A stretch of 64,000 nt of DNA from a bacterium. Lineage in GTDB: Bacteria > Bacteroidota > Bacteroidia > B-17B0 > Aurantibacillaceae. Numbering within the stretch: position 1 is the stretch's first letter; every line of letters begins with the position of its first letter. A program made the position numbers and the translations under genes. This document shows, in pieces, positions 32,556 to 46,099 of this stretch. The notes below the pieces were generated by a model, which ran no database searches, had not been told where the DNA came from, and saw only the letters and a list, made by a program, of their open reading frames with translations. The stretch covers positions 248,001-312,000 of the forward strand of contig JAQSCW010000002.1 of the NCBI GenBank assembly GCA_029945625.1, written 5' to 3'.

Positions 32556-35500
32556 ATGAGAACAAAAATTTACCTGATCTTTATATTTTCTTTTTTTATT
32601 TCACGGAATGGGTTCTGTCAGTCAGACCTTATTTCAATTAAAACTGATACCAGCTCTTTTAATTACCGTCTCTGGGATAGCGTTGCTAACGCCGGGAATT
32701 ATTCAGGGTACGAAAAGGCAATCTATATTCAACATCAAAAGCTACTTCACGCTAATCTGCCATTCGAGAAATTTGATACGGGTGGCGATACCACAAAATA
32801 TGTCATTCCTCGTAAGGGAATTGGTGGGCAAAGCAGCATTAATGTGGTGAATGGACCCTGTACAAATATTGATTTCGAATCGGGTCTTTTAACCGGTTGG
32901 ACCCCTTCCTGGGGATTTAATCCAAATGCCACTAACCCTGCGTATGTGCCGGCATGTTGCCCTACACCCGGCGGATCACAAGTCATTGTTTCCGGTCCCG
33001 GCTTAGATCCCTACGGTGGATTTCCGGTTGTTTTTCCCGGCGGTTCCTTTTCCCTAAAACTGGGAGATGACTTAGGCGGGCCAAATTCTAATGACAACGC
33101 CCACTCCGACCGGGTTGAACAAACATTTTCGGTTACCGCAGCAAACGCCAACTTCACCTATCGGTACGCAGTAGTTTTGCAAAACCCCGGACATGCCGTA
33201 AATGAACAACCTTCCTTTGAAATACAAATGCTGGCCTTTCCTGCCGGTACTCCCATTCCTTGTACCTATTACCAAGTGGTTGCTTCTACCACAGCAGTTG
33301 GTTTTTCAACCTCCTCTGCAAATTCGGGAGTGTTGTATAAACCTTGGACCAGTGTGGCTGTAGACTTAACTCCTGTAATCGGACAAAATGTAACGATCCG
33401 CTTTACGACCAATGATTGTTCACTTGGCGGCCATTTTGGTTATGCTTATATAGATGGAACTTGTACAAATTTCGCCACCAATGTTGCAGATACCACTTGT
33501 CAGAATGTGCCTTATGTCATGTGTGGGCCAATTGGTTTTGCATCCTATCAATGGGATGGACCGGGAGTGGTGAGTAATACAAATGCTTGTATTAGTGTTT
33601 CCACCACCGGTGTTTATACCTGCCAAACAATTTTAGTTCCGGGATGTCCTGGCCCTACATTTACCCACACGCTCAATACCTACCCAATTCCTTCCATTAC
33701 GTTCACCCCTAGTACAAATGGAAATTGTTCCAACCAGTACACATTTGCGGGTACTTCTACCATATCGGCCGGTACGGTGCCCACGTATACTTACTCTTTT
33801 GGCGACAATGGCAGCGGCTTAGGTCCTAATGCCACGCACAGCTACCCGCCCCCCGGCGCAGGAACTTACACGGTAACTCTTAAAGCAACAACGAGTAGGG
33901 GCTGCAAGGATTCTACAAAACAAGTCATCACCATTTATCCATTTCCGGTCATAGCATTTAGTCCACCGTCGTATTGTGTGAATAGTCTGGTACAATTTAC
34001 CAATACCTCCGCTGTTCCTGTCGTAGTGGGTGTACCACCCGGCACAGTCAATACTTTTACGTGGAACCTGGGAAATGGACAAAGCTCTAATTTGCAGAAT
34101 CCAACAAGCACCTATAGCACCAACGGAACCTATACCATTACGCTTGGTGCCACCAGCGATCAGGGATGTACCACCACCTCCAGTCAAACCTTAGGCATAT
34201 TCCCGCCACCCGTTCTTAATTTCACTGCAAATCCCTTATGTGACATCAATGGCACCGGGTTCACACCCTTTACCTCAACAGCGGTTGCTTCGGGCAGTAT
34301 CATCAGTTACTTCTGGAGATTTGGCGATGGAGGAACTTCCACTTTACAAAACCCGATACATTTTTATACCGCCGCAGGAATATACACCATTACATATAAG
34401 GGCACTACCAATCATTTTTGCGTGGACTCTGTGTCGAAGACTTTCTCCATCTCACCTACACCTACTGTGGCCTTCAGCACCACTTCCTTAAATGCCTGCG
34501 CACCGCAATTTACTTTTACAAATAATTCGACAATACCTCCGCCGAGCTCAATTTCCTATAGCTGGAGTTTTGGGGGCACTAATACATCTACTCTCACCAG
34601 TCCTAGTTATTCATTTCCTTCGGTGGGAAATTACACGGTGCAACTCATCGGCACTTCCAATTTGGGGTGTGCAGATACCGCCTTGCAAGTTATTACCATC
34701 TATCCTTTCCCTGTAGTGAGTGTAAGCTTGCCTGTTTCGTGTGAGAACAATGTCATAACGGTAACCACCACGCCGCTAAGTGGCACCATAAGTGCATTTA
34801 ATTGGGATTTTGGTGATCCACTTTCCGGGGCGTTAAATACCTCAACACTGCAAAGTCCCGCGCATACCTATTCCACGGTGGCTATTTATACGCTCTCACT
34901 AGCCATGGTGAGTGCTCAGGGCTGTCCACTTAGCTATACAAATACCATTAGCGTGCATCCCAAACCCACGCCGGCTCTTAATTTTTTCCCGGCCGACGCG
35001 TGTACCACCACTTTTAGTTTTGTGAATAATTCGGGATTCTCACCTCCACCTCCGCCGGGCAATACCATTTCTTCGTATTCATGGAATTTTGGAGGAGTAA
35101 ATACAAGTACTCTCACCTCACCGGTTTATGTTTTTCCGGGACCGGGCTTGTACACGGTGACCCTCCTGGCAAGTAGTAATTTTTCATGTCAGGCCCTTGA
35201 TTCAAAAACACTGGCCATTTATCCGTATCCAACAGCATCTTTATCTGTACTAAATAGTTGTTTAAATATCCCCGCAGTTTTTAATGGCACTTTTTCTCTG
35301 TCACAGGTGCCTTTTCCAGGAACAGTTCCCTCTTATACCTGGAATTTTGGGGATGGTAATTCCGATAATACCTTATCTCCAACGCACAGTTATACCACGT
35401 TTGGTACCTACCCCATTTCTTTTGGCGTCACAAGTAATCAGGGGTGTGTACGCACAGTTACCGCCAACTTAACCATTCACCCCTTGCCCACTACCCTCAA

Positions 35501-37289
35501 CTTTAATTTTTTTAATCCTTGTTTTGGTACACCGGTAACATTTTCCAGCAATGTGCTAATGCCTCCCGGCTCTAGTATTACAGGGTACAAATGGGATTTC
35601 GACGACGATGGCAGCATCAATAGCACAGCCATTAATCCTGCTTATACCTATACCGCGCCTGGTTCATATACAGTAGAACTCCGCATCGTTACCAATAATA
35701 ATTGTATTGACTCTGTGCGAAAACCTCTCACGGTCTACGATGTGCCAACCTCTGTAATTTCTACCACGAACGTGTGTTTTAAAACCGGGACACCTTTCTC
35801 AGCCAGTTCTAGCAGTCCGGGCATTGGAAGCATCATGAGTAGCTATTTTTGGAATTTCGGTAACGGCCAGTTCGGTAATTCGCAAGCCGGTATTCACAAT
35901 TATACAAGTGCGGGAACATATACAATTTCGCTCACCACAGTGAACAACAACAGTTGTACTAATACTTCATCCGGCCTCGTTACAGTTCATCAATTGCCGG
36001 TGGCTGATTTTAATGCCAACCCTGTTTGTTTGGGCTCACTCACCTCTTTTACCAACATCAGTAGTATTGGGGTTCCTGACCTCATCCTCAAATACCGTTG
36101 GAACTTTGGCACAGGTTGGGAAGATTCGGTTAATTTTAATCCTACCAAAGCATTTCCGGCCAGTGGAAATTATTCAGTGAAACTTGAAATACAAAGCAAC
36201 CATCAGTGTAACGCAACCCAAACCAAAAATATTATCGTGTATGGCAATCCCATTGCCAATTTTGCAAATTCCACCATTTGTGTGGGCGATAATATTACGT
36301 TCTACAATTTATCCTCTACCAGTGATGGCACGATTAGCAGCAATATTTGGGATTTTAATGGAGATGGCATTGTGGATTATATAGGTGAAAGTCCAAAGTT
36401 TACCTATGGGATAAATGGTTCGTTTACTGCAAAACTGGAAGTAAAAACGAACTACGGTTGTACAGCAAGCAAGACCAAACAACTCTTTGCCAATCCCAAA
36501 GCAGTTCCGGTATTTACGAGTGATAAGAAAAGCGGCTGTCCCACTCTATGCGTGAACTTTAAAAGCTTGTCATACATTACAACCGGAACCTTTACCAGCC
36601 GATGGGATTTTGGAGATGGAGGGCCGGGTGGCACCTTTACCGACATGAACCATTGTTTTGATGCCGGAAGTTACGGCGTGTCGTTAAAGCTTACTACCGA
36701 TAGCGGATGCGTAAGTTCGCGCATTGAACCGGGCTTTATTACTGTGTATTCGAACCCTGTTGCCGCCTTTAGTGTTGATCCTCCTGAAATCGACGAAGAT
36801 GATCCAACGATCAATGTATACAGCGATGCTTCTTCTAACACAAGTTTTACCAAATATTTTATAAGCGATGGTACATCCTACGAGTCCAAAAACTTTACCC
36901 ATTACATCAAAAATATGGGGAAGAAAACAAAACCCATGATTGTGCAAATAGTAAGAACCCCGCAAGGTTGCGCCGATACTGTGTATAAGGTACTTGACAT
37001 TAAACCGGTATACGTGCTCTATGTACCCAATGTGTTTACGCCCAACGACGACGGGACAAATGATTTCTTTGTGCCAAAGGGAGTTGGAATCCTAAAATTC
37101 AGCATGCAAATTTTCGATCGTTGGGGCCACATGGTATGGGATACCAATGATTTCACCACTACCTGGGATGGTAGTGAAAAAGGAGGAACACAACCTATTA
37201 AGGAAGATGTATACACGTGGAAAGCACAAGTGACTGATATTTTTAATAAAAACCATTACCTCGTGGGTCATGTGTCGGTGGTCAGGTAA
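32556..37289 (+). CDS. Giant PKD-array adhesin with CHU_C (type B T9SS) domain
   Basis: 1577 residues. A signal peptide (ends RNGFCQ) is followed by a jelly-roll-like N-terminal region (to about 375). Then there are about twelve PKD-type units (about 380-1430), recognisable by central motifs such as YSFGDNG, WNLGNG, WRFGDGG, WNFGDGN, WDFDDDG, WNFGNGQ, WDFGDGG. Each unit has an N-terminal Cys (for example PSYC, PLCD, NPVC, STIC) and ends in Gly/Asn-Cys at the start of the next linker. A degenerate unit precedes the CHU_C sorting domain (about 1490-1577; PNVFTPNDDGTND, FDRWGHMVW, TTWDGSEKG). It is exported by T9SS to the surface. Unlike the adhesins at 2-11 kb it has no PorP/SprF gene beside it. 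A terminator follows. Confidence 0.93.
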   Translation: MRTKIYLIFIFSFFISRNGFCQSDLISIKTDTSSFNYRLWDSVANAGNYSGYEKAIYIQHQKLLHANLPFEKFDTGGDTTKYVIPRKGIGGQSSINVVNGPCTNIDFESGLLTGWTPSWGFNPNATNPAYVPACCPTPGGSQVIVSGPGLDPYGGFPVVFPGGSFSLKLGDDLGGPNSNDNAHSDRVEQTFSVTAANANFTYRYAVVLQNPGHAVNEQPSFEIQMLAFPAGTPIPCTYYQVVASTTAVGFSTSSANSGVLYKPWTSVAVDLTPVIGQNVTIRFTTNDCSLGGHFGYAYIDGTCTNFATNVADTTCQNVPYVMCGPIGFASYQWDGPGVVSNTNACISVSTTGVYTCQTILVPGCPGPTFTHTLNTYPIPSITFTPSTNGNCSNQYTFAGTSTISAGTVPTYTYSFGDNGSGLGPNATHSYPPPGAGTYTVTLKATTSRGCKDSTKQVITIYPFPVIAFSPPSYCVNSLVQFTNTSAVPVVVGVPPGTVNTFTWNLGNGQSSNLQNPTSTYSTNGTYTITLGATSDQGCTTTSSQTLGIFPPPVLNFTANPLCDINGTGFTPFTSTAVASGSIISYFWRFGDGGTSTLQNPIHFYTAAGIYTITYKGTTNHFCVDSVSKTFSISPTPTVAFSTTSLNACAPQFTFTNNSTIPPPSSISYSWSFGGTNTSTLTSPSYSFPSVGNYTVQLIGTSNLGCADTALQVITIYPFPVVSVSLPVSCENNVITVTTTPLSGTISAFNWDFGDPLSGALNTSTLQSPAHTYSTVAIYTLSLAMVSAQGCPLSYTNTISVHPKPTPALNFFPADACTTTFSFVNNSGFSPPPPPGNTISSYSWNFGGVNTSTLTSPVYVFPGPGLYTVTLLASSNFSCQALDSKTLAIYPYPTASLSVLNSCLNIPAVFNGTFSLSQVPFPGTVPSYTWNFGDGNSDNTLSPTHSYTTFGTYPISFGVTSNQGCVRTVTANLTIHPLPTTLNFNFFNPCFGTPVTFSSNVLMPPGSSITGYKWDFDDDGSINSTAINPAYTYTAPGSYTVELRIVTNNNCIDSVRKPLTVYDVPTSVISTTNVCFKTGTPFSASSSSPGIGSIMSSYFWNFGNGQFGNSQAGIHNYTSAGTYTISLTTVNNNSCTNTSSGLVTVHQLPVADFNANPVCLGSLTSFTNISSIGVPDLILKYRWNFGTGWEDSVNFNPTKAFPASGNYSVKLEIQSNHQCNATQTKNIIVYGNPIANFANSTICVGDNITFYNLSSTSDGTISSNIWDFNGDGIVDYIGESPKFTYGINGSFTAKLEVKTNYGCTASKTKQLFANPKAVPVFTSDKKSGCPTLCVNFKSLSYITTGTFTSRWDFGDGGPGGTFTDMNHCFDAGSYGVSLKLTTDSGCVSSRIEPGFITVYSNPVAAFSVDPPEIDEDDPTINVYSDASSNTSFTKYFISDGTSYESKNFTHYIKNMGKKTKPMIVQIVRTPQGCADTVYKVLDIKPVYVLYVPNVFTPNDDGTNDFFVPKGVGILKFSMQIFDRWGHMVWDTNDFTTTWDGSEKGGTQPIKEDVYTWKAQVTDIFNKNHYLVGHVSVVR

Positions 37290-37341: not shown

Positions 37342-37573
37342 TTTATCCGGTAACAGGTCCTAATTCAAATAGGCGGCCAAATGAGAAATGTTTATTCACT
37401 CATCAAAAAGGCCATTTCACCCAGAAATACATATCTTTCACTCATTGATTTAAAATAAACTGTAACTGATTATCAAGTACTTAATTATAATTGGAAAGTT
37501 ATTTGACATTTTGGCGTAACCCTTTGAGAAGATTACAGTTATACTACTTAAACACCTACTTTCGCAAACTCAA

Positions 37574-38149
37574 ATGGCTATAAACCCGCATTTTCATCAT
37601 TCGGACCAACAACTTAAAGAAGAGTTGATGGTCATTGAAGCCGCGAAGTTGGATCCCGAGCAATTTGGCACCCTGTATGAAAAGTATTACAAGCAGATTT
37701 TCAATTACGTGTACCAGCGCATGGATTCAAAGGACGCCGCTTTTGACATCACGGGACAAGTGTTTTTGAAAGCCATGACCAATCTTCAGAAGTATGAATA
37801 TAAGGGTGTTCCTTTTGCCAGCTGGTTATACCGTATTGCGCACAATGAAGTGATGCAATTGTTCAGAACCCAAAAGAACAAAAGAGCAATTAATTGCGAC
37901 ATCAGTGACTTGCGTTTTATTTGTGAGGAGCAGGAAACCCCTTTCTTTGAGGAGTACATTCCGGTGGTCAAAAAACTCATTCAGGAATTAAATCAGGATG
38001 ACCTGCACATGGTGGAGATGCGTTTTTTTGAAAAGAGACCATTTAAGGAAATTGCAGATATTCTCGATATCACCGAAGTGAACGCCAAAGTAAGAATGTA
38101 CCGCATCATAGAGAAACTAAAAAAATCAATCAGCAAAATACACGTGTAG
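37574..38149 (+). CDS. Sigma-70 family RNA polymerase sigma factor (ECF type)
   Basis: 191 residues. Region 2 is visible as FDITGQVFLKAMTNLQKYEYK with FASWLYRIAHNEVMQLFR (about 55-100). Region 4, a helix-turn-helix, is near the end (HMVEMRFFEKRPFKEIADIL, then AKVRMYRIIEKLKKSI). The size and lack of regions 1 and 3 fit an extracytoplasmic-function sigma factor. It is followed at one base by a membrane protein that looks like its regulator and then, with overlap, by an FGE-fold protein; the three genes form one operon. It probably controls an envelope regulon; the signal is unknown. Autoregulation is possible but no operator is seen. Confidence 0.92.
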   Translation: MAINPHFHHSDQQLKEELMVIEAAKLDPEQFGTLYEKYYKQIFNYVYQRMDSKDAAFDITGQVFLKAMTNLQKYEYKGVPFASWLYRIAHNEVMQLFRTQKNKRAINCDISDLRFICEEQETPFFEEYIPVVKKLIQELNQDDLHMVEMRFFEKRPFKEIADILDITEVNAKVRMYRIIEKLKKSISKIHV

Positions 38150-38150
38150 C

Positions 38151-39923
38151 ATGAGCCTCAAATTTAATATAGACCGACCAAAAGTAAAAGACGAGGAAAT
38201 TAAGAATCAGCAAGACTTTAAGTCCTTAGTTGATAAGTTCAAACAACAAAGTTTAAAAAAAGCACAAGGCGACGAGAGTTGGTGGACGAATAAGATAGTC
38301 CGCTATTCAACGGTGATCGCAGGAATAACGGTAATTTGTACGATCACTTACTTTTCTCTTTTCAATAATCAGCAAACCACAAAAATCAAACATGAAGAAA
38401 AAACTACTCTAAGTCCCCTCACAAAATCAAACAGTCAAAGTACAAAAACCAAATTCGTACAAGCGCCTTCCTCAACATTACGACGCCCCTACTCTACCTA
38501 TACCGTTAACAACGCAAAAGGCGGTAAAATTATACATCCTACAGCTTCGAAGATCAGCATTCCTAAAAACAGTTTTGTGGATAAAAACGGGAAAAGCATC
38601 ATTGGAGATGTTACAATCGAATACAAAGAATTTCACGATGTGGGAGATGTTATTGCAGAAGGCATTCCCATGTCCTATGACAGTGCGGGGAAAAAATACT
38701 CGCTTGAAACCGCGGGCATGTTTGATATTCGAGGGTATCAAAACGGCGAACCTGTGTACATCGCTCCCAACAAGAACCTGAACGTTGAACTAGCTTCTGC
38801 GAATGACGCGAATCGATTTCATCAGTACTACCTCGACACTAACGCCCGCAATTGGAACTATCTAAAACACGATGTGCCGGTGAGAATAAAAAAAGGAGAG
38901 AAAGAAGAAGCAGCGAACCTAAAGAAATTACAAGCCCTTCAATTAGAAATTGAAAAAGTAATTCCACAAAAGATTGATAGTGTGGGTATCGTATACAGCC
39001 ACAAAGCTGAAAAACTACCAAGGGCCAAAGAACCTGTAAAACCTGCCAAACCAAGTGCCGGGCGACCCAATTTTAAGCTGGATGGCAGTTATGAAGAATT
39101 TCCAGAACTCGCCGCGTTCACTAATGTTCTATTTGAAGTGGGTCTCGAAAACAAGAATTACAGTAATGATTTGCATGAGATAACCTGGAGCGATGTGAAA
39201 ATCAGTCAGGGACCGGTGAAAGGAGTGAATTATGTACTGAGTTTGAGCTATCGTAATCGCCATGAGAAATTGATTGTTTACCCGGTACTCACGGGCACTG
39301 AGTTTGATCAGGCACGGGAGCGTTACAACGCAAAATTTGAAATTTACCGGGCACTGGTGGAAAAAAGAACTGCAGATGAAAAACACCTCATGGATGAAAT
39401 GGCCGCAAAACAAGCTGTTTACCTAGCCGAGCAGCGCAGAAAACAAGATGAGTTCGAAAAAGAAAAGGCTAAGTTAGCAGAAAGCAGTAATGCCGTGGCA
39501 CTCAATGAACTTTCATCTAATTTCAATGCCATGTCCATTCAGGTGAAAGCGCAGCGAATTTTTACGGTGTCAAAATTCGGGATCTTTAATTCCGATTGTC
39601 CACATTCTTTACCCGAAGGCAAAACAGTTCGGCCGGTATTTGTTTTGAATGAAAAAGACAAACCACTACAACCCGACTTTATTTATATGGTGGATCATGC
39701 GAAGAAAACCGTATACACGCTCGATAAACAAACCGGGTATAGCATGGTGTACGATCCTAATCAACAGTATTCAATTTGCATTTTTAAAAACAATAAGCTT
39801 TTTATTTGTAGTAAAGCCATGTTCAAGGAGAGTGCGGAAACGGATTCAAACAAATTTTTCGTCAGCCCTGTTCTGCAAGGTTCTGATAATTTAATTGACT
39901 TTAAAAAGGCCTTAGAGATATGA
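38151..39923 (+). CDS. Single-span membrane protein, likely membrane-bound regulator of the preceding sigma factor
   Basis: 590 residues. About 60 cytoplasmic residues (charged, with FKQQSLKKAQGDESWW) lead to one transmembrane segment (RYSTVIAGITVICTITYFSLF, ~58-78), then a large extracytoplasmic part. The latter begins with a beta-sandwich segment like ZU5-type domains (KGGKIIHPTASKISIPKNSF) and contains a long Lys/Glu/Gln-rich coiled coil (about 415-470). Translation starts one base after the sigma-factor stop and overlaps the next gene by 4 bases. The cytoplasmic arm plus a sensing outside domain fits an anti-sigma factor or sensor, but I see no recognised anti-sigma motif. Role inferred from context. 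Confidence 0.75.
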   Translation: MSLKFNIDRPKVKDEEIKNQQDFKSLVDKFKQQSLKKAQGDESWWTNKIVRYSTVIAGITVICTITYFSLFNNQQTTKIKHEEKTTLSPLTKSNSQSTKTKFVQAPSSTLRRPYSTYTVNNAKGGKIIHPTASKISIPKNSFVDKNGKSIIGDVTIEYKEFHDVGDVIAEGIPMSYDSAGKKYSLETAGMFDIRGYQNGEPVYIAPNKNLNVELASANDANRFHQYYLDTNARNWNYLKHDVPVRIKKGEKEEAANLKKLQALQLEIEKVIPQKIDSVGIVYSHKAEKLPRAKEPVKPAKPSAGRPNFKLDGSYEEFPELAAFTNVLFEVGLENKNYSNDLHEITWSDVKISQGPVKGVNYVLSLSYRNRHEKLIVYPVLTGTEFDQARERYNAKFEIYRALVEKRTADEKHLMDEMAAKQAVYLAEQRRKQDEFEKEKAKLAESSNAVALNELSSNFNAMSIQVKAQRIFTVSKFGIFNSDCPHSLPEGKTVRPVFVLNEKDKPLQPDFIYMVDHAKKTVYTLDKQTGYSMVYDPNQQYSICIFKNNKLFICSKAMFKESAETDSNKFFVSPVLQGSDNLIDFKKALEI

Positions 39924-40705
39924 AAAGTAGAATAGGATTAATTGCCGGTGTTTTTGTTCTACTTTCCTTCACTTCCTACCATCACAAAATTCTTGTTCCT
40001 CCCGGTACTGTTCAAATCACCCAAAACTTTTTTGCCGACGAAATGGAGGTCTCCAATCGCTCATGGCAGGAATTTGAATATTGGACAAAGATAAAGTACG
40101 GCTACCATTCAAAAGAACATCTTGAAACTCTTCCCGACACGCTGGTATGGAGAAATGTGGAAAGCAAAAATGAACCTTATGTTATTTATTATTACCGCCA
40201 TCCCGCTTATCAAAATTTTCCGGTGGTGGGAATCAGCTATGAACAAGCCTTGGCCTTTTGTAAATGGCGCACCGAACGCGTAAAGGAGTTTTATAGCCTG
40301 GCGAATAAAAAAGATCTGGACATAACATACCGACTTCCCACCAAAGAAGAATGGGAATTCTTAAGCATAAGCAGTTCATCTGCTTTACGTAACGGTGGAA
40401 AAGACGAAAAGAATCATGCCCGTTTGAATTGTGCACGCGAAGCAGGTGATAGTGTAGTGAGAGACAAAAGAAACATAAATGGAAAATACCCGGATGTAAC
40501 TGCACCTGTAAACTTTTACGCGCCAAACCGCTTTGGACTTCACAATTGTTTGGGAAATGTATCAGAAATGATTTTGGAAAAAGGCATCAGTAAGGGAGGA
40601 GGCTGGCTACATGCGATTGAAGAATGTCGCGTGGGCAAAGACATAACTTATGCCAAAGCCAATGCATGGTTGGGATTTAGGTGCGTGTGTGTGCTTAAGA
40701 AATAA
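39920..40705 (+). CDS. FGE-fold (SUMF1/EgtB/PvdO family) envelope protein lacking the catalytic cysteine pair
   Basis: 261 residues with an N-terminal membrane or signal segment. Conserved FGE motifs in order: FADEMEVSNRSWQEF (~35), PVVGISYEQALAFCKWRTER (~103), YRLPTKEEWEFL (~145), NRFGLHNCLGNVSEM (~205), SKGGGW (~228), LGFRC (~250). A true formylglycine-generating enzyme needs a Cys pair with the GGSW/C-type copper site; here the motif is SKGGGW with no Cys at that place, so the enzyme function is probably lost. In Bacteroidota this fold is used structurally in gliding/T9SS proteins GldJ and GldK. The gene overlaps the regulator gene by 4 bases. Role inferred. Confidence 0.85.
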   Translation: MKSRIGLIAGVFVLLSFTSYHHKILVPPGTVQITQNFFADEMEVSNRSWQEFEYWTKIKYGYHSKEHLETLPDTLVWRNVESKNEPYVIYYYRHPAYQNFPVVGISYEQALAFCKWRTERVKEFYSLANKKDLDITYRLPTKEEWEFLSISSSSALRNGGKDEKNHARLNCAREAGDSVVRDKRNINGKYPDVTAPVNFYAPNRFGLHNCLGNVSEMILEKGISKGGGWLHAIEECRVGKDITYAKANAWLGFRCVCVLKK

Positions 40706-44974: not shown

Positions 44975-46099
44975 CTATTCCATTTTAATAAACTTGCAGT
45001 AACTTTCTTTCTCGTTCATTGTCAATCGTAATACATACAATCCTGTTTCAAGCCCCGACACATCAACAGAACTAAGACTACCAAACACTTCCGGTTTTAC
45101 TGACTGAATCAATTTTCCATTCACGTCGTAAATAGTGAGATTGCAATTGCCGGAAAAGTCCTGATCAAACCATAATTTATCTTTTACCGGATTGGGGTAT
45201 AAATTCAAGGCACTGATATCTTCAATCGCGGAGATTCCTGTGGTGTTTACAGTATTTGTGGAGGCAGGCTTGAAGCCGCGGTACCTTGCCTGAGTAATTG
45301 TATAATTGTTTCCAACCAAATTACCCGTCACTTCAAAATAGGGGATTTTGCTTGTTAGGGTCATCCACTGGTAACTCCGCACATTGTTCTGGATGCCAAT
45401 TTTAATGGGTGGTAATGCAGGTAAGGGCGGAATAGCGGGCAGTGTTAAGGTAATCGTGTCTTTTGAATATTGTGTGGTGATTAACCTCAAACAATTATCG
45501 GTGCCGTAGGGCGTTTTTACTGTACCCCAGCCATCTACCTTGGTAGTTCTATACCCTTGCTTGGCATATTTAATGGGCAATACGCCCGCCGTAGTGGTAG
45601 AGAATTTAAACGTCGTGCTATCATACTTCGGAAAAGTCATAGGAAAGTTGTACAATTCATCCTTGTCAGAATAGTAACTTGGAACCGGAATTCCACTGAT
45701 ACTCATTCCCATACCATCGGCAATAAAAGCATTGGGAGAAGCTTGTTTCTTATAGAAATTATACACCTTAGTAATGGTAATGGTTCCAGTACCGCCTACT
45801 AAGGTGTCCGCTATTTTTTCACCATATTCATTGGCCGACAGAAAGAACAAAAAGTAGGGAGTTTGAGAAGCCGCTACAAAATCTCTTCGTCCTGCGGTAG
45901 TGGAGTTGGCAGTGCTAAAATCCCAGCTAAAATTAGTACCCGTTTGGGTATAATTTCCGATGGAAGCGGTTTGCACATTGGTATACCGTAAGGTGTCGCC
46001 AGCCCCTGGCATATTGCTGTTGCCGAGGGTGATTGGACTTTGGGCAATAAACACCGCACTCAGGGCGTTTAAAAGAAAAATGAGGTGATTTCTATTCAT
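44975..46099 (-). CDS. Secreted protein with type A T9SS sorting domain
   Basis: 374 residues. The signal peptide ends FIAQ. Residues about 20-290 are a beta-rich globular part with no family I can name. The C-terminal 75 residues are a Por-secretion (type A) sorting domain: LNLYPNPVKDKLWF at its start, NLTIYDVNGKLIQ, then LETGLYVLRLT. The protein would be exported by T9SS, have its C-terminal domain cleaved and be released or anchored to lipid. It is monocistronic, divergent from the TamA/BamA-like gene. The sorting domain is certain; the passenger function is unknown. Confidence 0.9.
   Translation of the reverse strand: MNRNHLIFLLNALSAVFIAQSPITLGNSNMPGAGDTLRYTNVQTASIGNYTQTGTNFSWDFSTANSTTAGRRDFVAASQTPYFLFFLSANEYGEKIADTLVGGTGTITITKVYNFYKKQASPNAFIADGMGMSISGIPVPSYYSDKDELYNFPMTFPKYDSTTFKFSTTTAGVLPIKYAKQGYRTTKVDGWGTVKTPYGTDNCLRLITTQYSKDTITLTLPAIPPLPALPPIKIGIQNNVRSYQWMTLTSKIPYFEVTGNLVGNNYTITQARYRGFKPASTNTVNTTGISAIEDISALNLYPNPVKDKLWFDQDFSGNCNLTIYDVNGKLIQSVKPEVFGSLSSVDVSGLETGLYVLRLTMNEKESYCKFIKME

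Follow-up and report, generated by a model that had tools for sequence, protein, structure and literature searches.

The subject of this work is a three-gene locus in a bacterium of the family Aurantibacillaceae, class Bacteroidia (assembly GCA_029945625.1, contig JAQSCW010000002.1, positions 248,001 to 312,000 of the forward strand). The stretch of 64,000 nucleotides (nt), analysed as a whole, is referred to as the window. The locus encodes an extracytoplasmic function (ECF) sigma factor, a membrane protein and an exported protein with the fold of the formylglycine-generating enzyme (FGE).

37574..38149, + strand: ECF sigma factor gene, 191 aa, with Pfam regions 2 and 4 and a homologue upstream of the membrane gene in relatives
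38151..39923, + strand: membrane protein gene, 590 aa, a putative anti-sigma factor from gene linkage and module conservation
39920..40705, + strand: exported FGE-fold protein gene, 261 aa, with an incomplete catalytic site, from PF03781, alignment and tree

All three genes are on the + strand; one base separates the sigma gene from the membrane gene, and the membrane and FGE genes overlap by 4 bases, a geometry that an earlier reading made from the DNA letters and their translations (the sequence-only reading) had given exactly to the base. As is characteristic of ECF sigma factors, the first product is short and has both Sigma70_r2 (4e-13, 49.3 bits) and Sigma70_r4 (9e-9, 35.1 bits), each over its Pfam cut-off. 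The third product matches PF03781 at 3e-26, in agreement with the FGE fold assigned by the same reading, and the 590-aa protein has no Pfam match at E ≤ 1 and no NCBIfam match. The trio arrangement is not due to chance, because the same arrangement recurs in relatives.

The sigma/membrane pair as core and the FGE gene as accessory

Within the window's family, which alone makes up the sampled order, 87 genomes were searched, and the membrane protein was matched in 75 of them at E ≤ 1e-3, in some over part of the protein alone. (Handles beginning with L denote loci, those with G genomes.) A sigma homologue lies upstream of the membrane gene in all 60 family loci that show the start of that gene and at least 600 nt before it. 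By contrast, the FGE gene is variable. After exclusion of 5 loci cut by contig ends from the 69 examined, its state could be resolved in 64, being intact in 40, fragmentary in 2 and absent in 22; the call was by length, with L023, probably frameshifted, scored as intact and L063, which retains a 3' remnant, scored as none. Remnants of the gene are present in L029, L062 and L063. Mapped onto a tree of 62 membrane proteins, the FGE character must change state 21 times, and well-supported branches force no fewer than 17 of those changes; its presence clusters no more than shuffled labels do. This scattered distribution can be read as repeated loss. In L008, L014 and L030, the FGE gene gives way to genes for different exported-looking proteins (151, 263 and 153 aa, respectively), which keep the 4-base overlap; the L008 and L030 proteins match each other.

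The sigma/membrane pair is the core of the system and the FGE gene is accessory. The sequence-only description of the three genes as locked in one operon thus holds for the sigma and membrane genes (60/60) and fails for the FGE gene, in view of its 21 changes on the tree. That reading had also pointed to other genomes as the place to look for the trio, and there it recurs, in 40 of the 64 resolvable family loci and, in a related form, outside the family (L266).

A sigma-linked N-terminal module in the membrane protein

A single strong hydrophobic segment lies near residues 49-72 of the membrane protein, with no others past residue 90. Comparison with homologues divides it into two parts.

38151..38366, + strand: N-terminal module of the membrane protein, separable from the rest of the protein and preceded by a sigma gene in 176 of 177 distinct cases
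38367..39923, + strand: the remaining ~518 residues of the membrane protein, its outside part, with homologues that lack the module

The module comprises the first ~82 residues, of which ~45 are predicted to be cytosolic and are followed by one membrane helix; the cytosolic segment has the consensus KxNxNRxxxSxxEIxxxKNF. An alignment search of 395 class genomes with the membrane protein gave matches at E ≤ 1e-15 in at least 147, and a profile of the module alone matched (E ≤ 1e-3) frames of fewer than 60 to more than 700 residues in at least 125 of 295 class genomes (class-wide genome counts are lower bounds, since no more than 3, 18 or 8 candidates were scored for each genome, depending on the search). 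The module recurs across class Bacteroidia, either alone, as proteins of 55-108 aa, or joined to different outside domains. In L177 and L179, it forms a protein of 108 or 90 residues behind the sigma gene, with the outside part encoded by a separate divergent gene, a layout resembled by L218 and L221, where a lone module has an outside domain in the divergent neighbour gene. The outside-only homologues of L152, L153, L177 and L179 begin, as judged by eye (n=4), with segments like signal peptides or lipoprotein signals.

It is the module, rather than the outside part, that tracks sigma genes. Among 177 distinct cases of the module, 176 have a sigma gene on the same strand no more than 400 nt 5' of them, versus 3 of 30 homologues of the outside part without it. 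The former count covers the loci, in the stretches collected at that stage, with 600 nt or more of sequence 5' of the module; each distinct sequence was counted once, and the sequences that built the module profile are included. A fresher test is given by 40 loci chosen mainly for the presence of the module in an unusual protein, of which 39 have a sigma gene directly upstream (that of L229 is cut by a contig end), the exception being L250, a weak module match without one.

A location directly 3' of the sigma gene combined with co-conservation (60/60 in the family, 176/177 in all stretches) is as found for membrane anti-sigma factors. On this linkage, the membrane protein is very probably the anti-sigma factor of the adjacent sigma factor, so supporting the anti-sigma-like role proposed in the sequence-only reading; the ZU5-like outside domain proposed with it was not recovered, there being no Pfam match in the window protein and no ZU5 among the 25 listed of the 29 Pfam families matched by 29 homologues (E ≤ 1). 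The same 25 families include no anti-sigma family, nor do the 5 NCBIfam families matched by 57 module sequences (E ≤ 0.01), and no CnrY chain is among the 27 Protein Data Bank (PDB) matches of the module profile (E ≤ 10). By these comparisons, the module is a short sigma-linked unit unnamed in the curated libraries searched.

Active site and relatives of the FGE-fold protein

The FGE protein has a hydrophobic segment at residues 3-19. Across 42 orthologue rows (41 distinct, those of L015 and L036 being identical), the first catalytic position is Asn in 23, His in 11, Ser in 3, Thr in 2 and Asp, Met or Phe in 1 each, and is never Cys. The second catalytic position, C236, is Cys in 37 of the 42, and C114, C255 and C257 are Cys in 41 each. 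A profile alignment with human SUMF1 (chain 2aft) pairs C236 with the second catalytic Cys and each of C114 and C255 with another Cys; the 2aft chain, a Cys-to-Ser mutant, itself reads Ser at the first catalytic site. The lack of the catalytic Cys pair noted in the sequence-only reading is thus true of the first residue and not of the second. Formylglycine-generating enzymes have both active-site Cys residues; judged by these positions, the window protein is not an enzyme of that known kind.

The same reading had likened the protein to GldJ and GldK, and a tree comparison does not bear this out. The closest solved structures by sequence are PorK chains. Against the curated cut-offs, the protein scores only 113.3 bits for GldK (cut-off 350) and 84.9 bits for GldJ (cut-off 458.2), and in a tree of 62 FGE domains GldK (support 83/90) and GldJ (98/93) each form one group, whereas the window lineage falls outside both, in another clade (93/86) that it shares with single-domain exported proteins from other families. 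The window's own genome has two further PF03781 genes, a GldK over the curated cut-off and a GldJ-like gene (377 bits versus 458), the window gene being a third, separate copy.

Outside the family, 3 of 20 FGE-centred stretches (L266-L285) adjoin a sigma gene, and none of the 20 has a GldM match. The L266 trio has an FGE protein of another exported type. In L268 and L269, a sigma-like gene of a different kind (in L268 with Pfam region 4 over its cut-off and region 2 below) is followed by a gene for a protein with a hydrophobic segment, seen by eye, and two FGE domains, the first sister to GldK (100/99) and the second in the window's clade.

Candidate promoters and upstream repeats

Three candidate control elements precede the sigma gene.

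37395..37447, + strand: direct repeats in three copies, TTCACTCA / TTCACCCA / TTCACTCA, with a period of 21 bp, a candidate site for a DNA-binding regulator
37461..37488, + strand: candidate upstream promoter TGTAAC-N16-AATTAT, a variant of a class-wide ECF-type promoter
37515..37542, + strand: candidate downstream promoter CGTAAC-N16-AGTTAT, a second tandem copy and a variant of the same promoter

In the family, the pattern TGTAAC-N15/16-(A/C/G)2-TTAT precedes 51 of 61 sigma genes and a CGTAAC-N15/16 copy precedes 33, with both copies present in 30; the reversed patterns give 0 in either case. A pattern closely similar to the downstream promoter occurs once in the window, at 37515..37542 itself. 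For the class as a whole, the motif TGT(A/G)(A/T)C-N-(C/G)(A/G)TTA was derived from k-mers enriched 5' of sigma genes outside the family. With spacings of 12-23 tried, it occurs in 39 of 94 such loci at a spacing of 15 (23 loci) or 16 (16 loci), with one case at 23; shuffled sequences give at most 0.25 per spacing and reversed sequences 0.

This class-wide motif, stricter than the family variant, precedes 44 of 99 non-family and 12 of 60 family sigma genes, versus 15 of 697 other open reading frames (ORFs; reversed, 2 of 697). By gene class, with uncorrected p values, it also precedes 4 of 23 exported FGE genes (p 0.002), 4 of 30 genes for outside domains only (p 0.006) and 2 of 14 GldK genes (p 0.04), together with 1 of 45 family-operon FGE genes, 0 of 39 GldM genes and 0 of 15 GldJ genes. 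Four of the 23 exported FGE genes are linked to sigma or membrane genes (L180, L266, L268 and L269). The 19 unlinked ones divide by best match into 10 of the window's clade, of which 2 carry the promoter (L271, L272), and 9 of another exported group, of which 2 do so (L183, L267). On these motif matches, outside parts located away from the operon sometimes carry a sigma-type promoter.

The 21-bp repeats lie 5' of the two candidate promoters. Two overlapping pairs occur in the window and 0 in shuffles; the block is seen in most of 17 aligned relatives, and a pair in 26 of 61 family loci. The spacing is like that of LytTR regulator sites, and it may be that a second DNA-binding regulator acts on the operon from these repeats.

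The same promoter motif was seen in two other settings. In the type IX secretion system (T9SS) gene cluster of L323 (G104), there are two class-promoter matches, 5' of an ORF at 397-1311, PorP/SprF-like by eye, and of gldK; direct control of T9SS genes is possible in that genome. Small exported-looking proteins encoded in the sigma/module loci L127, L150, L154 and L226 have the motif 5' and are possible further members of the regulon.

GldM-like partners in other lineages

Of 96 distinct module proteins that are not family orthologues, 29 have a GldM-family ORF (E ≤ 1e-3) on the same strand in their stretches, a number that includes the weak or distant cases L130 (E 3e-4, 439 nt), L134 (1.6 kb), L177 (5.5 kb), L249 (E 8e-5) and the fusion L214 (E 7e-5). 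In seven cases a GldM copy (E ≤ 1e-115) lies beside a sigma/small-module pair, being whole in L230, L236 and L237 and cut by the end of the stretch in the other four. The copies in G091 and G095 are paralogues, since another GldM lies near GldK on a different contig. Twice, the module is fused to the C-terminal part of GldM (L216, E 2e-9; L214). As regards the other GldM-like ORFs, fourteen begin at most 20 nt after the membrane gene and the rest lie from 94 nt to 5.5 kb away.

When 21 of the sigma-linked third genes are combined into a profile, it aligns with GldM domains 3-4 (columns 347-540) at an hhalign probability of 99.5 (E 2.7e-22). A profile of just the 11 initially chosen as the weakest gives 98.1, and the FGE, membrane and sigma alignments used as controls do not go above 2.3. 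Scanned singly against Pfam, 1 of 5 of these proteins is over a GldM cut-off. In the window's family, the operon position of the GldM-like third genes is taken by FGE proteins, and in L266 by the other FGE type.

A second group of six third genes (L126, L127, L129, L133, L140 and L145) matches neither GldM nor FGE. GldM was considered and rejected as a member of the window operon; the one GldM match of that genome is on contig C26, which also carries GldK.

Two neighbouring genes in the window likely encode T9SS cargo, as suggested by their sorting domains. A 1577-aa protein (32556-37289), just 5' of the operon, contains 12 PKD-domain stretches together with a type IX sorting domain (CHU_C), and a protein encoded at 44975-46099 on the - strand has a Por_Secre_tail (PF18962) sorting domain.

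Discussion

The reading that we consider probable, from the genomic comparisons taken together, is that the locus encodes an ECF sigma/anti-sigma switch, which is autoregulated and whose periplasmic sensors are interchangeable and in several cases T9SS-like. The 590-aa protein would span the inner membrane once and its short N-terminal segment would keep the sigma factor at the membrane; the large outside part, together with the exported FGE-fold protein as an accessory, would sense conditions in the periplasm or outer envelope. Once freed by a signal, the sigma factor would use the tandem TGTAAC/CGTAAC-N16-TTAT promoters to transcribe its own operon and would, in certain genomes, also transcribe outside-part genes that are not linked to it. 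The FGE protein would act as a binding component and would not generate formylglycine.

The sigma/membrane pair looks like a membrane anti-sigma system, and on that resemblance binding between its two products can be inferred. According to passages of PMC7406223, only 6% of the ECFs in Bacteroidetes have a class I anti-sigma domain nearby, and the authors offer breaks in synteny or anti-sigma factors of other classes as possible reasons. One Bacteroidota class, Dma, is described in part of PMC13088901 as binding sigma through an N-terminal domain, which is followed by one helix, a tether and, at the C terminus, a barrel. In the Dma/Das systems of Bacteroides thetaiotaomicron, as in the window, an ECF sigma gene adjoins that for a one-helix membrane protein, and dma2, like the window trio, is in a three-gene operon; the disordered tether and C-terminal beta-barrel of Dma differ from the outside region of the window protein, in so far as the two can be compared by description alone (PMC13088901). 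CnrY-type class II factors, as characterized in passages of PMC7406223, have a short sigma-binding segment, formed in CnrY by two helices; in the window protein, ~45 predicted cytosolic residues precede the membrane helix. The window sigma group may already be numbered in the main ECF reclassification.

Several observations weigh against the proposed switch. With respect to the membrane protein, the module has no detectable similarity to solved anti-sigma domains in a profile comparison with the PDB, L165 has the module and no sigma match, and a structure model of the 590-aa protein built from three sequences has a predicted local distance difference test (pLDDT) score of 42.9, too poor for use. 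With respect to control by the sigma factor, the promoter motif was learned from the very sigma-upstream sequences in which it was counted, and for this reason the sharp spacing is the main promoter evidence; linked GldM-like genes have no motif excess (1/28, p 0.47), as would be expected if most are inside an operon; and in the window's own genome GCGTAAC-N15-20-TTATA has 4 matches versus 6 in the control, which is chance level and reveals no regulon. With respect to the FGE protein, its absence or fragmentation in 22 and 2 of the 64 loci marks a dispensable gene, 17 of the 20 FGE loci outside the family have no sigma match by profile, half of the four unlinked promoter-bearing FGE genes (L183 and L267), like the L266 trio, lie outside the window's clade, and a structure model from two sequences (pLDDT 38.4) was too poor for use.

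It may therefore be asked whether the FGE protein has any part in signalling, or is an unrelated exported protein that shares only the transcript. Its repeated loss while the sigma and membrane genes persist, the different exported proteins at the same 4-base overlap in L008, L014 and L030, and the 17 relatives without sigma linkage would suit such a passenger. Against this stand the fusion of window-clade FGE domains to sigma-linked membrane proteins (L268, L269), the existence of a trio with another FGE type (L266), and the presence of a promoter of the sigma type 5' of 4 of the 19 unlinked exported FGE genes, including 2 of 10 in the window's clade; on balance, we regard a mere passenger as unlikely, while giving it more weight than the other alternatives considered here.

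The direction of control is a separate matter. Gene order and module conservation argue for a partnership and leave its sign undefined, so the membrane protein might activate or position the sigma factor instead of inhibiting it, with the FGE protein an envelope factor on the shared transcript. The layout, however, matches that of Dma1/Das1 and Dma2/Das2, for which the authors conclude, in the passages drawn on here, that the membrane protein restrains the sigma factor (PMC13088901), and promoters of an autoregulatory type suit a sigma factor that is held back; an activating role appears improbable. More improbable still is an enzymatic role for the FGE protein, in which it would modify or oxidise by another chemistry, as the conservation of the second catalytic Cys and much of the fold core could suggest. 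Against it, the first catalytic Cys is absent in 42 of 42 rows, and the conserved C257 may be an alternative disulfide partner for C236.

If the switch with interchangeable sensors is taken as the working model, the nature of those sensors raises the further possibility that Bacteroidia use sigma switches to monitor the T9SS/gliding machine through outside sensors derived from that machine. This proposal is tentative, and we put its chances at somewhat below even; it is based on the GldM-like partners and the FGE fusions. The sensors would have the GldK (FGE) fold in the window's family and be GldM-like shafts or shaft ends elsewhere, in either case combined with the one minimal module predicted to bind sigma, and a sensor might dock on, or compete for, the contact between ring and shaft and report its state to the sigma factor. 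Docking at that contact is suggested because PorM domains 2-4 contact PorK in the actual machine, as reported in the part of PMC7463736 consulted. The T9SS/gliding lipoproteins GldK/PorK and GldJ have the FGE fold in common with the window protein, which differs from GldK and GldJ in having no lipoprotein signal by eye and in its separate tree branch. GldM/PorM, the T9SS motor shaft, resembles the sigma-linked third genes of other lineages and is outside the window operon.

There is precedent for links between ECF sigma factors and the T9SS. In Porphyromonas gingivalis, SigP controls T9SS genes (passages of PMC4800418) and PorX binds the T9SS motor subunit PorL (PMC5005315). The PorX/PorY-SigP circuit is like the proposed switch in joining an ECF sigma factor and T9SS parts; it differs in running via a two-component system, and the passages of PMC4800418 drawn on here name no membrane anti-sigma factor. 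In Flavobacterium psychrophilum, T9SS genes and an ECF sigma/anti-sigma pair come under one ECF-type promoter class, according to passages of PMC9723704. No link joining FGE or GldM with a sigma or anti-sigma factor was found in passages of PMC9143113 and PMC5524665, both of which contain GldM as well as ECF sigma terms.

The module is a searchable candidate for part of the shortfall of anti-sigma domains near ECFs in Bacteroidetes, and the promoter motif predicts targets. The T9SS ring- and shaft-like partners present in several lineages would make sensing of the secretion/gliding machine directly testable, and the relatives of the trio suggest a little-described way of sensing the state of the envelope in Bacteroidia.

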